The notes beneath the pieces were generated by a model. The model searched no databases, was not told where the DNA came from, and saw only the letters and a program-made list of their open reading frames with translations. Below, in pieces: positions 2,030 to 57,067 of a stretch of 64,000 bases of DNA. The position numbers and the translations under genes are program-made. The stretch is from Tillus elongatus (lineage: Eukaryota; Arthropoda; Insecta; Coleoptera; Cleridae), in the NCBI GenBank assembly GCA_964006375.1, contig OZ023267.1:34793766-34857765 (forward strand). The letters run 5' to 3'. The stretch's first letter is position 1. Each line of letters begins with the position of its first letter.

Positions 2030-2186
2030 AATAATGGGGAAGATAGAAAAAGTAATTATGTATAATTTAAATTTTTTGTGTTTAATTAGGTGAGGTGTGT
2101 ATAATATTATGTGTATTATGATATGTTTCATATATTTGAAACACCCTGTATGTTAAATTTTAGATATGTAATGTGGTTTTAAATAA

Positions 2187-2535
2187 ATAAATAAGCCTCG
2201 GTGCTTCAGGGGCAAGAACGTGTGCCTCTGAACCGAAAGGTACTGGGTTCGATCCCAGGGTTCTCCTTTAACTTTTTCAGTACAAACTGTAACATTAACA
2301 TCAACCGAGGTTCTGGCATTGTATTGGAGCAAGTTGAATGTCTGCACGTTCCACCCTTCGGAGGGGGCGTAAAGCCGTCGGTCCCATATCCATGCGATGT
2401 TGGGCACGTTAAAGATCCCTACCCTCCTTACAGAAAGGCAGGGGTTCGGCAAAATTTCCAGGATAGTGAGGTGAAACTGCTCCCTGGCGTCGGTGATTGG
2501 CCATAGTCGCGGAAATTGGCCGACGTTAAAGACAA
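2187..2535 (+). repeat. tRNA-derived SINE, left arm of palindrome
   Basis: The element starts with a tRNA-like head ('gcctcggtgcttcagg') and has a good RNA polymerase III B box, GTTCGATCC at 2247-2255, near a weaker A box. The body contains 'gggcacgttaaagatccc' and ends '...gccgacgttaaag'. Related copies lie at 39153-39492 and 41665-41935. The central 'cgtaaagccgtcggtcc ... cacgttaaagatccc' region resembles the widely conserved core domains reported for some metazoan SINE superfamilies; that link is inference. Confidence 0.72.
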
Positions 2536-2563
2536 AAACATTGATACACAATTAGGAGATATG

Positions 2564-2709
<146 letters not shown>

Positions 2710-2737
2710 CATATCTCCTAATTGTGTATCAATGTTT

Positions 2738-3086
2738 TTGTCTTTAACGTCGGCCAATTTCCGCGACTATGGCCAATCACCGACGCCAGGGAGCAGTTTC
2801 ACCTCACTATCCTGGAAATTTTGCCGAACCCCTGCCTTTCTGTAAGGAGGGTAGGGATCTTTAACGTGCCCAACATCGCATGGATATGGGACCGACGGCT
2901 TTACGCCCCCTCCGAAGGGTGGAACGTGCAGACATTCAACTTGCTCCAATACAATGCCAGAACCTCGGTTGATGTTAATGTTACAGTTTGTACTGAAAAA
3001 GTTAAAGGAGAACCCTGGGATCGAACCCAGTACCTTTCGGTTCAGAGGCACACGTTCTTGCCCCTGAAGCACCGAGGCTTATTTAT
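2738..3086 (-). repeat. tRNA-derived SINE, right arm of palindrome
   Basis: Exact reverse-complement copy of the SINE at 2187-2535, as part of the palindrome. Its B box is at 3018-3026 on the minus strand. Confidence 0.72.
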
Positions 3087-3243
3087 TTATTTAAAACCAC
3101 ATTACATATCTAAAATTTAACATACAGGGTGTTTCAAATATATGAAACATATCATAATACACATAATATTATACACACCTCACCTAATTAAACACAAAAA
3201 ATTTAAATTATACATAATTACTTTTTCTATCTTCCCCATTATT

Positions 3244-4149: not shown

Positions 4150-4331
4150 AATGGGTGAAGATTGGAACCTGTGATGAGCACTGATAAGTACAGTTTGGAG
4201 AACCCAATTCATCACAGTTTTTAGACCTGACGATCATTTCAGTTTATTCATCCCTCTGATATGAGGCTAACTTGGAGAAACAATCGTCAGGTCTAAAAAC
4301 TGTGATGAATTGTGTTCTCCAAATTGTACTT
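4150..4331 (-). mobile_element. Retrozyme-like hairpin element, copy a (12-bp TSD)
   Basis: A 182-bp unit flanked by perfect 12-bp duplications, ATTTATACTAGG at 4138-4149 and 4332-4343. It is an imperfect hairpin: 'ggagaacccaattcatcaca' is mirrored by 'tgatgaattgtgttctcc'. On the plus strand the loop side keeps a degenerate hammerhead-like core (CTGATATGAG...GAGAAACAATCGTCAGG, 4256-4291). Compared with copies e and f the unit lies in reverse orientation. Confidence 0.7.
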
Positions 4332-9410: not shown

Positions 9411-10097
<687 letters not shown>

Positions 10098-14913: not shown

Positions 14914-15050
14914 TGAGTGAAAGTTGGAACCTATGGTGAGCAATGATAATCACATTTTGGAGAACCCAACTCGTCACAATACAGTTTTTAGACTTAACGA
15001 TTGTTTCACTAACAAAGTTAGCATCATCAGAGGGATGAATAGACTAAGTG
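14914..15050 (-). ncRNA. Retrozyme-like copy b, hammerhead ribozyme candidate
   Basis: On the minus strand 15034-14991 reads CCCT, CTGATGA, T, stem II GCTAAC-TTT-GTTAGT, GAAAC, AATCG, TT. This is the order of a type I hammerhead: CUGANGA core, stem II, GAAA, a very short stem III, and a GUH cleavage triplet (GUU). One extra nucleotide sits between the CUGANGA box and stem II. Only half of the hairpin unit is kept and no flanking duplication was found. Activity is not shown; the core bases are intact. Confidence 0.5.
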
Positions 15051-20528: not shown

Positions 20529-20893
20529 TTAGGTTAACCGAAAAATACAGGTAAAGCAGCGCTTCACCTGCCTCATCTGATGAGCCGCCACTGCTGCCAC
20601 CTTCGCAGTCGCCATTTCTACAAGAACTCTCCAACTTAGGTCACCGTAGACAAGCCTCACTCCCAAGAAAACTATGCTTTCACAAAAATTCATTTCCCGA
20701 TTATTAACAGAGAGTGTTATTAAAATCAACGAAGTTTGTTTTATATACATTAAAAAGCAAACCGTTTTCATCAAACCATCTATTAAAATCCTTTAAAGCA
20801 CCAACTGTCTTATCTTTTACGCTCTTTAGTTCTCTCACTACAAATGAGATCGTAGCATCATCAGAGGATAGCAAATTTGAATTTCTCATCCCC
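20529..20893 (-). pseudogene. LINE RT fragment (palm/thumb)
   Basis: On the minus strand: SSDDATISFVVRELKSVKDK (the YADD box reads SSDD), then FNRWFDENGLLFNVYKTNFV, then in a second frame REMNFCESIVFLGVRLVYGD and MATAKVAAVAAHQMRQVKRC. This order (catalytic DD, helix, K-T, FLGV) is RT palm to thumb. One frameshift and truncation at both ends. Confidence 0.7.
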
Positions 20894-20990
20894 TCATGAA
20901 ACTAACTTTGTTAGTGAAATCATCGTCAGGTCTTTAACATGTGTTTTGATGATTTGGGTTCTCAAGGTGTACCTACTTATAGGTACATAT
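20893..20990 (+). repeat. Retrozyme-like hairpin family, half copy c
   Basis: 'actaactttgttagtgaaat', 'catcgtcaggtc' and 'gatttgggttctcaaggtg' match one arm of the hairpin family. The CUGANGA box is lost; the stem II hairpin and GAAA remain. Confidence 0.55.
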
Positions 20991-40560: not shown

Positions 40561-40681
40561 GTAAGGTGCCAAACTTTATCTATTAGCAGTCGGTTTATCT
40601 AAAACTCTGCGGGAGGTAAATTGCAAATTCACCCTTCCTTCCTCATATATTAAGTGTAACATTACAATCGTAAGTGAATAT

Positions 40682-40845
40682 TGTGATGAGCACTGATAAG
40701 TACAATTTGGAGAACCCAATTCATCACAATACAGTTTTAGCCCTTACGGAGTTTATTCATCCCTCTAATGACGCTAACATTGTTAGCGAAACTATCCTCA
40801 GGTCTAAAACTGTATTTTGATGAATTGGGTTCTCCAAATTGTCTT
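40682..40845 (-). mobile_element. Retrozyme-like hairpin element, copy d (11-bp TSD)
   Basis: A 164-bp unit flanked by ATTACAATCGT at 40671-40681 and 40846-40856 (perfect). Hairpin arms 'ggagaacccaattcatcaca' and 'tgatgaattgggttctcc'. The plus strand 40761-40803 has a hammerhead-like order with a perfect stem II, GCTAAC-ATT-GTTAGC, then GAAAC; the CUGANGA box reads CTAATGA, so one core base is changed. Confidence 0.75.
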
Positions 40846-43210: not shown

Positions 43211-43821
43211 TTTCCAAGGTAAAAAAAGAACAGAACAAGCTATACTCCATACTGAATTTATTCGGCCCATATATCTGGCCATCTTCATGGGCTTCGTTCT
43301 GTTTTTTATAACAGGAACTGAACTTTACAAGAAATCTATCATAGTGGCTGTTTTCATCGACTGTCGCTTCTGTTTCCTTGCACTATATGGGCGAAGGCAG
43401 AATTAAAAGCATTAAAACCTCAATTCACAGCAATGGACAAACGGCAATACAAATGAAAAATTTCGGATTTGAAATGGAGGACAGTTAAAAGCTGAATATC
43501 TTAAGTGAACGGGGATATTCGGCTTTTAACTGTCCTCCATTTCAAATGCGAATTTTTTTATTTGTATTGCCGTTTGTCCATTGCTGTGATTTGAGCTTTT
43601 CATGCTTCTAATTCTGCCTTCACCCATATAGTGCAAGGAAACAGAAGCGGCAGTCGATGAAAACAGCCACTATGATAGATTTGTAAAGTTCAATTCCTGT
43701 TATAAAAAACAGAACGAAGCCCCTGAAGCTGGCCAGATATATGGGCCGAAACGCGTAGGGCTTTTACTAAATAAATTCAGTCTGGAGTATAGCCTTGTTC
43801 TGTTCTTTTTTACCTTGGAAA
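43211..43821. repeat. Foldback element nested in the mariner
   Basis: Two near-identical inverted arms of about 280-310 bp (43211-43490 and 43511-43821) surround a loop of about 20 bp. For example 'tttccaaggtaaaaaaagaa' at the left is mirrored by 'ttctttttttaccttggaaa' at the right. No coding content and no second copy in this window. Confidence 0.85.
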
Positions 43822-44534: not shown

Positions 44535-44744
44535 AGCACACTTGGAGAACCCAGATCACCATAACACATTAAAAAAACCTAACGATTCTTTCACTAACCA
44601 AGTTAGCGCTATCTGATGCGCCTCTGATGACGTTAACTTGGTTAGTGAAACGATCGCTGGGGTTTTTAAAATATGTTGTGGTGATTTGGGTTCTCCAAGT
44701 GTGCTTATCAATGCTCATCACGGGTTCCAATCTTCACTTAGTGA
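44535..44744 (+). mobile_element. Retrozyme-like hairpin element, copy e
   Basis: A 210-bp unit. Flanks ATTTTATTTAAA (44523-44534) and ATTTCATTTAAA (44745-44756) match at 11 of 12 bases, consistent with an aged target-site duplication. The plus strand 44621-44662 reads CCT, CTGATGA, C, GTTAAC-TTG-GTTAGT, GAAAC, GATCG; the cleavage triplet reads GCT instead of GTH. The opposite arm has a weaker core. Confidence 0.7.
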
Positions 44745-48929: not shown

Positions 48930-50040
48930 TTAGTGAATTTTCTTAAAAAAATCACTAATGGGGAGATCTGTAATAAGTACACTTGGAGAAAACCCAAATC
49001 ACCACAACACATATTTCAGAGACCTTACGATCGTTTCGTTGACCATGTCAACATCTTCAGAGGAAGAAAAATTCTTCTTCCTTTGAAGATGTTGACATGG
49101 TCAACGAAACGATCGTAAGGTCTCTGAAATATGTGTTGTGGTGATTTGGGTTTTCTCCAGTGTACTTATTAGTGCTCATCACATGTTCCAGTTTTCACAT
49201 AGGGGAGATCTGTGTTAATAATAATGGACCGATTTTGATAAAATTTCGTAGGTACCTTCCTTTTGCAAGTGGCTTGGATAGGTTCGTTAGCCAGGAAAAT
49301 CGGACCAGTTTTCCTAGAAAATTCTGGGTTATCTTTCGGAAAATTTTTGTTTCTCTGAAAATAAGAAAGCTATGCCAATCAAATCTGGTAATCAGGTTTA
49401 CACTATTAAACTTACCATACATGCCAAAATCAGATCACTAAGTTTAAAGAAAAAAAGTTATAGACATTAAAAAAAAACTTGGGTGCCATTGATGACCAGA
49501 GAACTGCACAAACCAAAACATTTTGTGTGGATAACAAAATCTATTATATAATACAGACAAAGATTAAGTTTTCTTGACGCAAAAAGGTCAAGAAATAATA
49601 GAAAAGTTACTTTGAAAAATTTATAGTTTTTCTTCTGAAAATGTCAAAGTCGCGATTTGAAACGTCAAAATTTGCAACTTTTGGACGGAGAACCTGAAAC
49701 AAATACAGATTATGTAAAAGAAATGTCATAAAAAATGTGTTTTACAACGCCTTAAGTTACAGCTTTAACCATTATTGTCCTTCATTTTACTAAAATATTT
49801 TCAGAAAATAAATTTCAAATAGACCCTTTCTCTGATGAATCGGCAGTAGTTTCAGTTATATTGTTCCTGGTTTAATAGTCTATCCTTTTTCGCGAATTTT
49901 CGTATAAAAATCGTTATTGAGAAGACCGCGACTTTAAAATTATAAAAATATTTCTTCAAATGATTGCGAACTAGGCCCCTTCGGGGGCAATTTCAGTTTT
50001 TACATGTTTACATATATACAGGGTGGTGCATTTTTACTGT
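48930..50040 (+). repeat. Composite repeat, divergent copy split by retrozyme-like copy f
   Basis: The terminal hairpin (48930-48960) is interrupted by copy f at 48971-49201. The spacer resumes at 49203 ('aataatggaccgattttgat' to about 49900), followed by an arm ('cgaactaggccccttcgg') at 49920-50020. Confidence 0.7.
48971..49201 (+). mobile_element. Retrozyme-like hairpin element, copy f (11-bp TSD)
   Basis: A 231-bp unit flanked by GGGGAGATCTG at 48960-48970 and 49202-49212 (perfect). It is an almost perfect hairpin with 95-bp arms (48972-49170) and a single-stranded-type tail of about 30 bp ('agtgctcatcacatgttcca'). A hammerhead-like core occurs on both strands: minus 49064-49021 with CTGAAGA, T, GTTGAC-ATG-GTCAAC, GAAAC, GATCGT, A; plus 49079-49120, the same but TTGAAGA. 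The minus-strand core is complete. Confidence 0.78.
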
Positions 50041-53180: not shown

Positions 53181-53519
53181 AGACACTTTAGCTACTCACA
53201 CTCACATTGATACATTAAAGAACACCGGATGAGGCTTTGTCATAGTTTTATGTAGTTTAGTTTAGTTTAGTTTATATTTCAAGGATTCAATGTCGATAGA
53301 GATCTGATATAACAACTCATGAGACTTTTAAATTAGATTAGTTTCAACAAGCATTCCTCATGTTTCACCTTGTGTCAAACCCATCTTATAGTGGCCACGT
53401 CTTGTACTGTCATGACAAAAAGAAGCCCTTATTGGCGCTAGGCTTGAAGAATTGTGCCCCTGTCTTTCCTATAGTTAAATAAGGTAATCCTACTTACGTT
53501 TGTATAAATTACGAGCATA

Positions 53520-53633
53520 AGTAATAAGTACACTTGGAGAACACCCAAATCACCACAACACATATTTCAGAGACCTTACGATCGTTTCGTTGACAAAGTC
53601 AACATCTTCAGAGGAAGAAAAATTCACATAGTG
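53520..53633 (-). ncRNA. Retrozyme-like unit, copy g (13-bp TSD), hammerhead candidate
   Basis: A 114-bp unit flanked by perfect duplications AATTACGAGCATA (53507-53519 and 53634-53646). On the minus strand 53615-53572 reads CCT, CTGAAGA, T, GTTGAC-TTT-GTCAAC, GAAAC, GATCGT, A, AGG. All bases of the hammerhead core (CUGANGA, GAAA, UH) are present; stem I can start with CCT/AGG. The other arm of the hairpin is absent, so this is a single-ribozyme unit. One extra base lies between the CUGANGA box and stem II, as in other copies. Confidence 0.6.
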
Positions 53634-53811
53634 AATTACGAGCATATAAGTATATACGTGTATATTTTTGATTAAAAAAAAGCTTTCATTACATTACATA
53701 AGCTCAGGTATGTAAATTTTAATGTTGTAAGTCCCAAACACCCCGCGAACTTGCCTATTAGTAGTTATTATATGTGTAAATATGTGTATATGCTTATATA
53801 AAAAAATCTCG

Positions 53812-55770: not shown

Positions 55771-57067
55771 ACGAGGGCTGGTCAATAAGTCCGTGATTTT
55801 TTTAATGAAACACGTTTTTTTTGACAAAAATCATTTAATTTCTCAACATAGTATCCTTTGAGCTCTATACACTTCGTCCAACGTTTCTCCAATTTTTTTA
55901 CCCCTTCCAAAAAATAAGATTTGTCGAGGTCCTCAAAATAGGTATTTGTTTGTGAGATGATTTCATCATTGAAGTCAAATCTTTTTCCGCCGAGCCATTT
56001 ATTTAAGTTCGGAAACAAGAAATAGTCACTCGGGGCTAAATCCGGAGAATAGGGTGGATGAGAGAGCAACTCGTAGCCCATTTTATGCAATATGGAGACT
56101 ACATATGTGTGCACCCTTGCATTGTCTTGGTGGAAAATAACTTTTTTCTTGCCCAAATGTGGTCGTTTTTTCTTCAGATCGTCATTGAATCGGTCCAATA
56201 AGTTGGTATGATATTCGCCATTGATCGTTCTTCCCTTTTGAAGGTAATCAATGTGGATTATACCGCGTGCATCCCAAAAAAACGGTCGCCATGACTTTAT
56301 TGGCTGACAAACCCACCTTGGCGTGCTTCGGCGCCGATTAGCATGGAGAAACCCACTGTTTTGACCGCTGCTTGGTCTCTGGTGTGTTGTGGTGAATCCA
56401 TGTTTCGTTCATGGTTACGAAACGGCGCAAAAACTCGTTCCTATTGCGGTCGAACAACGCCAAACAGTCCTTCGAAGTTGTTACACGATTGCGTTTGTGG
56501 TCGATTGTGAGAAAACGCGGCACCCATCTTGCGGATAGCTTTTTCATACCCAAGTGATCATGCAAAATCGAGACCACTGAGCCATGTGATATGCCTATGG
56601 CTTCCACAACCTCCTCACTTTCAATATCCAACAAAATTTTCAATTGTTTCGGGTGTAGCGACCTAAACTGGGCGTCCAGAATGTTCGGCGTCATTTGTGC
56701 TTGTACGGCTGCAACAAGATTCAGTAAACCATATTTTTACCATGGAAATTGATGGTGCAGGGTCCCGATAGTATTTATTTAGCTTAGCCTGGGTTTGAGT
56801 GATGTTATTTTCCGCAAAAAATAATGTTTGATGAGCACACGAAATTCACTTTTTTCCATTTTCGTTATAACTCAAGATATTGTCTGCTTTTAATGGCTAT
56901 CTAATACAAACTAGATGACGCAGCTTGTTCAAAATTTGACAGGAGTCAACTGATAGGTGCCTGTTGACAGGAGCAGTGTTGCCCTGCCTGTTGACAGGAG
57001 CAGTGTTGCCCTTCCTGTGAATAGGCGGGAAATTTAAAAAGTCACTAACTTATTGATCCGCCCTCGT
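55771..57067 (-). mobile_element. mariner element, near full length
   Basis: Ends CGAGGGCTGGTCAATAAGT (left) and, inward from the right, CGAGGGCGGATCAATAAGT are inverted repeats; TA follows at 57067-57068. The length of about 1.3 kb is standard for mariner. A 24-bp direct duplication ('tgttgacaggagcagtgttg') occurs near 56963-57008. The transposase is on the minus strand. Confidence 0.88.
55782..56859 (-). pseudogene. mariner transposase, inactivated
   Basis: From an ATG at 56859: MEKSEFRVLIKHYF, frame change, then KYYRDPAPSISMVKIWFTES; ESEEVVEAIGISHGSVVSIL and RWVPRFLTIDHKRNR (the second HTH and WVPH-L motif, here WVPRFL). Catalytic sites: FVTMNETWIHHNTPETK, where the first Asp (MDETW) is Asn; VIFHQDNARVHT; PPYSPDLAPSDYFLFPNL. 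Frame breaks near 56800 and 56330-56200. With the first catalytic Asp mutated it could not cut even if repaired. C-terminal KCIELKGYYVEK is the family ending. Confidence 0.88.

Follow-up and report, generated by a model that had tools for sequence, protein, structure and literature searches.

Hairpin repeats with a minimal hammerhead-like core on each strand and their probable origin from Penelope-like element ends in Tillus elongatus

Features of the locus

We examined a 64-kb stretch of Tillus elongatus DNA, hereafter called the window, which contains a short hairpin repeat at positions 48972-49201 (Table 1). The two 88-nt arms of this unit are 98% complementary and meet without a spacer. 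Its calculated folding energy is -172.8 kcal/mol, compared to a mean of -48.6 for shuffled sequences (z -32), and the plus-strand RNA is predicted to form a single long hairpin whose 3′ tail is mostly free. These values bear out an earlier note on this DNA, in which the unit was described as a near-perfect hairpin. The same note listed seven copies, at 4150, 14914, 20893, 40682, 44535, 48971, and 53520, and all of them were recovered when each copy was compared by BLAST with the window.

Direct repeats of 11-13 bp lie exactly at the element ends in five of the seven copies. The copies at 14914 and 20893 are truncated, and a search for terminal repeats at these two gave none that is clear. Empty sites for five insertions were also sought in the window, with no match across any junction; near the 48971 unit, this search returned only separate repeats of the left and right flanks. 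The sequence at 49214-49370 is part of a dispersed repeat in or beside which this unit sits, and the right-hand part of that repeat (TGGACCGATTTTGATAAAATT type) occurs at about ten other places in the window with 77-84% identity.

The window also holds an uninterrupted ubiquitin-L40e reading frame (9669-10094) and mariner-like transposase reading frames (55785-56736), with a Pfam Transposase_1 match within 55785-56408. In a large, near-identical inverted duplication with an AT-rich center (2153-3120), one 132-aa reading frame occurs twice, at 2153-2551 on the minus strand and at 2722-3120 on the plus strand. Another long hairpin that looks perfect, at 43462-43552, gives a sub-threshold match to mir-75 (47 bits, gathering threshold 60) and is probably a further foldback repeat.

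Table 1. Hairpin units and their parts in the window (PLE, Penelope-like element)
Feature	Positions	Strand	Remarks
Hairpin unit described here, subfamily A	48972-49201	+	Between exact 12-bp repeats
Left 12-bp target duplication	48960-48971	+	GGGGAGATCTGT
Right 12-bp target duplication	49202-49213	+	Exact
Left arm	48972-49075	+	Hammerhead sense on its minus strand
Right arm	49076-49170	+	
Unpaired 3′ tail, 31 nt	49171-49201	+	Common to PLE copies L104, L108, and L110
Complete minimal hammerhead core	49023-49063	-	CTGAAGA, extra T, 6-bp stem II, GAAAC, GATC, GTA
Hammerhead core with one change	49080-49120	+	CCTTTGAAGA; C3 to T
Half-unit	53520-53633	+	Left arm and last tail bases; 13-bp duplication 53507-53519 / 53634-53646
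Complete minimal hammerhead core in half-unit	53574-53614	-	
Hairpin copy, subfamily B	44535-44744	+	Cores damaged; 12-bp duplication with one mismatch
Hairpin copy	40672-40845	-	Right arm shortened; core damaged; 11-bp duplication
Hairpin copy, subfamily C	4150-4331	-	Right arm shortened; core damaged; 12-bp duplication
Left-truncated copy	14914-15035	-	Core letters kept at 14993-15033(-); stem I weakened by one mismatch
Truncated copy 20893	20879-20975	+	No tail; core damaged

A minimal hammerhead core on both strands

The element order CCT-CTGANGA-N-stem II-GAAAC-GATC-GTH-AGG is complete in two window copies, the 48971 unit and the half-unit at 53520, in each case on the minus strand. For the 48971 unit, the previous statement that the minus-strand core is complete and the plus-strand core has one change was confirmed from the letters. 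Both strands carry a core because the unit is a hairpin. Counted by subfamily, the 41-nt motif is intact in 57 of 65 cases for A, 21 of 45 for B, and 11 of 26 for C.

Assignment of the motif to type I hammerheads with a very short stem III, as proposed in the earlier note, stands with respect to the order of the core elements and the 2-bp stem III, but not with respect to an Rfam match. The hammerhead model RF00163 has no match in the window either at its gathering threshold or at E ≤ 10, and none at E ≤ 10 in the family and PLE loci L110, L101, L102, L002, L099, and L109. At relaxed thresholds, therefore, a hammerhead is detected solely with a custom descriptor that allows an extra nucleotide before stem II. 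This descriptor, which was written after the motif had been seen and whose regular expression is limited, from any given start, to the shortest spacing, gives two matches in the window and none in 200 Mb of random sequence with 33% GC. Sub-threshold Rfam miRNA matches of the unit were rejected, as they reflect the bare hairpin.

Stem I comprises 3 bp, and competing local RNA folds are more stable in all three subfamily consensuses. The stem III sequence ACGAUCGU is self-complementary, which is what cleavage as a dimer would need. The minimal hammerheads of Penelope-like elements (PLEs) are said to cleave in this manner, and they share with the present motif the type I order and a very short stem III (Lunse 2017 and Cervera 2014, as cited in PMC7761336 and PMC11167929). 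Compared to the minimal hammerheads as summarized in those sources, the units described here carry the motif on both strands and have the additional nucleotide ahead of stem II, and their ribozyme is putative.

The additional nucleotide is U in subfamily A and C in subfamilies B and C. A ribozyme of chrysanthemum chlorotic mottle viroid likewise has an extra nucleotide between A9 and the first base of stem II, and this viroid also carries hammerheads on both strands; at this position, U is reported as favorable and C as harmful (PMC3705267). The viroid differs in being an infectious plant RNA, and we claim no common descent. Judged from these sequence features, the units appear to carry a type-I-like minimal hammerhead core that constitutes a putative ribozyme.

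A second, unrelated hammerhead family was encountered in the genome at ten loci (L009-L018, positions ~1501-1547). Its members score 30.1-33.7 bits with RF00163 (gathering threshold 34); their stem III is a short palindrome and their cores are CTGAAGAGTCC-like. These loci may represent a canonical retrozyme family.

Genomic copies and target duplications

The genome searched amounts to 1.72 Gb in 30 contigs, in which the 48971 unit has 40 scored relatives with 90-100% identity. Our samples consisted of 28 copies for subfamily A (window copy included), 30 relatives of 44535 for B, and 30 relatives of 4150 for C. Terminal duplications with a score of at least 9 flank 28/28 A, 20/30 B, and 18/30 C copies, whereas control pairings of flanks from different copies yielded such matches in 1/530, 1/580, and 12/586 cases, respectively. 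Four C loci (L073, L079, L084, and L090) have an almost identical terminal duplication (ATATTATATTGAT type), and therefore the C control is probably raised. These loci may be copies inside a larger repeat; L084 also has a duplicated motif.

The duplications of A are 9-18 bp long, and the overall pattern fits retroposition rather than a DNA transposon. Each of the 28 A copies lies as a single unit between its duplications, and no tandem direct repeats were found among them. Thus, of the retrozyme likeness suggested previously, the type-I-like core is upheld, while the tandem arrangement is absent from the copies studied.

The junction of the half-unit at 53520 recurs at a second locus, L112. 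About 20 half-units that had been inferred from matches to 53520 were rejected as a set: of four examined, only L112 is a half-unit, and the others are two PLE ends (L113 and L114) and a full hairpin (L115). In addition to the seven copies in the window, 12 arm-bearing copies are present in 210.6 kb of flanking DNA. This suggests that arm-bearing sequences number on the order of 10^5 genome-wide, a rough figure given that the flanks are not a random sample and that some of the copies in them are PLE ends.

Relationship to Penelope-like elements

The earlier note placed a Penelope element in the window, but none was found in a Pfam analysis of 30 of the 118 window ORFs of at least 75 aa, which gave five RVT_1 matches, LINE-like by eye, and none to GIY-YIG; nor does any of the 150 GIY-YIG matches listed for the genome lie in the window. 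The Penelope link itself held up, and more strongly than the letters of the window could show, because arms, ends, and tail of the unit are common to PLE loci elsewhere in the genome.

Such GIY-YIG/PLE loci are common, with at least 150 scored matches in a search of the genome. Among the best-scoring 12 of the 150 listed, nine have a hammerhead arm in sense orientation ~230-760 bp downstream, three of these with the full tail, and three have no arm. For copy 20893, two relatives out of the 40 scored also lie downstream of GIY-YIG matches on the same strand, at distances of 159 and 239 bp.

The most informative locus, L110+L111, encodes RVT_1 and GIY-YIG domains in an open frame of 478 aa and has ~690-bp inverted repeats with 93% identity, an exact 13-bp duplication, and both outer ends (left and right) and the tail as in the hairpin. 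Because its relatives have frames of 780-790 aa, this copy seems to be 5′-truncated. A 12-bp duplication with one mismatch flanks L108; one was looked for at L104 and none was found. Among named PLEs, the nearest relatives come from a longhorn beetle and a springtail.

Hairpin A is closest to the PLE at L110 (95.7% identity, compared to 80.4% to B), and hairpin B is closest to the PLE at L102 (97.7%, compared to 82.4% to A). Therefore, the hairpins arose at least twice or follow the PLE lineage. They contain no RT and GIY-YIG ORF of the kind that defines an autonomous PLE, because their length of 114-245 bp leaves no room for one. From these sequence comparisons, the hairpin unit appears to be derived from a PLE end, and its common ends lead us to infer that hairpins are mobilized by PLE protein.

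Comparable architecture is reported for the PLEs of Adineta vaga, which have inverted pseudo-LTRs and an optional tail (PMC3846280). The elements are alike in their inverted terminal repeats and in a one-sided tail of 31 bp; both have duplications, those in A. vaga being 8-10 bp, and the terminal repeats are said to be sufficient for integration in trans. However, the repeats in the A. vaga elements covered by that account bound an ORF or captured DNA, whereas here the outermost ~100 bp of each repeat meet with no interior.

Arm ends, tail, and apex

Left arms start within a few bases of the stem base, and right arms end after the ~31-nt tail. The same stop base is found in 19 of the 28 A left arms, and none of these 28 arms runs more than 1 base beyond it, though PLE sequence continues. 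In eight of nine PLE arms a TATA-like box precedes this base (six are strict TATAWA), and the distance from box to stop base, counted by hand in the PLE arms, is 26-32 nt. A shared stop base ~30 nt past a TATA-like box makes the A arm look like cDNA that extends from an internal start site to the 5′ end of a PLE RNA, and the stop base of A left arms is a probable RNA start. Support in B is weak, as the equivalent base is reached by few arms and overrun by two right arms. For B and C, this test was limited to arms with an intact CAGAGG.

Diagnostic variants at three sites agree between the two arms in 15 of 17 cases. The 26 parsed copies display 19 apex strings, some of which recur (in four, three, and three copies); the other two of the 28 copies could not be parsed for an apex, and one of the strings is a parsing error. 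Matching arms with differing apexes are expected if one kind of RNA serves as the template of both arms at insertion and the copies are then joined. Single-base differences overall comprise 52 in one arm and 17 shared by both arms, and this one-arm excess is as expected from decay and uninformative. We also weighed whether a B-box-like string in the tail could be a Pol III promoter and rejected this, since the string is not kept in A and is located at the 3′ end.

In one PLE examined in vitro, reverse transcription begins at two internal sites that bound a “tail,” and the element cuts and extends both strands of the target (PMC11167929). The element Poseidon PAc of Anolis resembles the present case in its hammerhead near the RNA start and in these two start sites, and the template there is uncut by the ribozyme. 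Hairpin insertions are not described in the main text of that report, and host and sequence are different.

Constraint on the motif and the ribozyme cut site

The arm consensuses of A, B, and C differ at none of the 23 positions that are fixed in a hammerhead (core, stem I, and stem III with its loop), at 9 of the 18 permissive positions (N7, extra nucleotide, loop II, stem II, and H17), and at 14 of 50 positions outside the motif. Fisher tests for the fixed positions give 0.0025 against the outside and 0.00014 against the permissive positions. Stem II pairing is kept by two double changes in A versus B/C.

To these consensus data we add a set of 87 distinct 41-nt motifs, obtained from 141 motifs by removal of duplicates and of five not 41 nt long; L009-L018, a different hammerhead family, and L111 were excluded from the motif search. 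In this set, 92.5% of stem II cells are paired, and 48 cells are changed on both sides, versus 18.9 in shuffled motifs (0/500). Two of the five shuffle measures show no excess, namely doubly changed pairs (4 versus 3.8) and pair types (14 versus 13.8), and the double changes trace essentially to one A/B split. A rival 7-bp pairing of the core shows no double change, and in A two of its seven pairs are broken. Random base changes in stem II across a larger genomic set had been named in the earlier note as evidence against a hammerhead; the differences between subfamilies are compensatory.

The hammerhead motif is thus constrained at the sequence level, and its conservation suggests that it is important to the PLE. 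We infer that the motif matters to the PLE, in RNA processing or in the binding of the enzyme, and that the hairpins contain it only as a passenger.

We sought a peak of arm ends at the ribozyme cut site, and 0 of 167 measured arms begin at the scissile bond, a count from which 4/30 C right arms and 5/30 C left arms are missing for want of an anchor and in which long queries bias the fetched copies against cut arms. In subfamily C, the start of five right arms lies no more than 3 nt from the bond. The templates were therefore probably uncut. The in vitro study is in agreement: PLE RNA with a dead ribozyme is reported to insert normally, and cleavage in that system needed protein (PMC11167929). 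Since the arm ends ignore the cut site and the in vitro data agree, we assign the hairpins no ribozyme-dependent life cycle. We take the motif in them to be a component of the PLE leader.

Proposed origin and alternative explanations

On balance, we think it probable that the units are short insertions made by PLE machinery, with arms that correspond to the 5′ leader of the PLE RNA. According to this model, the PLE RNA would start ~30 nt past the TATA-like box in the PLE terminal repeat, and an arm would span the minimal hammerhead motif, reaching from this RNA start to either of two sites at which reverse transcription begins. These sites would lie 30-35 nt apart, and the stretch between them would form the one-sided tail. 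The PLE enzyme would cut both target strands, cDNA would be primed from each cut strand on the leader RNA, and the two cDNAs would be joined at the apex, leaving both strands of the resulting hairpin with a hammerhead core. The unequal inverted ends of L110 would fit the same reaction with longer cDNAs. A more specific version, to which we assign an even chance, regards the hairpins as a record in the genome, made up of perhaps ~10^5 arm-bearing sequences, of target-primed reverse transcription by a Penelope enzyme from both sides, in which each cDNA passed through the uncut hammerhead to the RNA 5′ end before the two were joined. Self-priming, which has been proposed for inverted PLE structures (PMC3846280), could be another route to inverted arms.

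One alternative, which deserves consideration although we do not favor it, is that each PLE lineage gave rise to a hairpin once, when the interior between its inverted terminal repeats was lost, and that hairpin RNA has since been copied in trans by the PLE enzyme as a self-propagating, non-autonomous family. The recurrence of some apex strings and of the half-unit junction at L112 would be in line with this history, as would the resemblance of L104 and L108 to interior-deleted PLE copies. However, most copies differ in their apex string, and loop II variants of the hairpins are also present in the PLE ends L113 and L114. Moreover, repeated copying of an old hairpin would need homogenization to yield the observed agreement of arm variants. 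It is distinctly less likely, in our judgment, that the hammerhead likeness is incidental and that the conserved letters serve another RNA structure, such as enzyme-binding stem-loops. The negative Rfam scans and the more stable alternative folds can be cited for this view, as can the C in B and C at a position where C is reported as harmful in the viroid ribozyme; yet the same account (PMC3705267) reports as favorable the U that subfamily A has there. The complete invariance of fixed positions beside the variation at half of the permissive ones also speaks against an incidental likeness, as do the failings of the rival core pairing and the occurrence of such motifs in PLEs (PMC7761336).

A life cycle like that of animal non-LTR retrozymes, in which the ribozyme cuts multimers into monomers that circularize and re-insert, seems improbable for these units. 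The two groups are alike as small, non-autonomous retroposed units with type I motifs, a similar size range, and high self-complementarity, and PLEs have been proposed as the source of the retrozyme enzyme (PMC7229834). Retrozymes as characterized there are tandem direct repeats that give rise to circular RNA, whereas the units in T. elongatus are inverted pairs. Their copies are single, with ends fixed away from the cut site, and a sense RNA of the full hairpin would bury the core in a stem of -170 kcal/mol. We attach hardly any weight to a MITE-like foldback DNA transposon or a miRNA gene, despite the near-perfect inverted repeats and a sub-threshold MIR5649 match (74.8 bits, gathering threshold 100): the duplications are not of fixed length, the one-sided tail renders the ends unsymmetrical, and these ends are those of a reverse-transcriptase element.

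Implications for Penelope-like elements

Minimal PLE hammerheads, inverted PLE repeats, tails, and extension of both target strands are already in print. In the open-licence literature, we found no account of leader-only PLE hairpins with the motif on both strands; most subscription papers and repeat databases were outside this scope. The role of PLE ribozymes has been called unknown in the literature, and the reason why PLEs carry inverted repeats, a tail, and hammerheads is unsettled.

If the origin proposed above is correct, palindromic repeats with a ribozyme motif on both strands would be made anew with each insertion, and the PLE transcription start, as well as the two points where reverse transcription begins, could be read from the hairpin ends. 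Large numbers of two-ended products would tie inverted repeats, tail, and hammerhead to a single step. That step would be open to testing, since every copy would preserve the two starts of reverse transcription, the 5′ end of the RNA, and the state of the template, cut or uncut. The proposal would also point to a likely origin of those long-hairpin repeats that could be mistaken in annotation for MITEs or miRNA genes.
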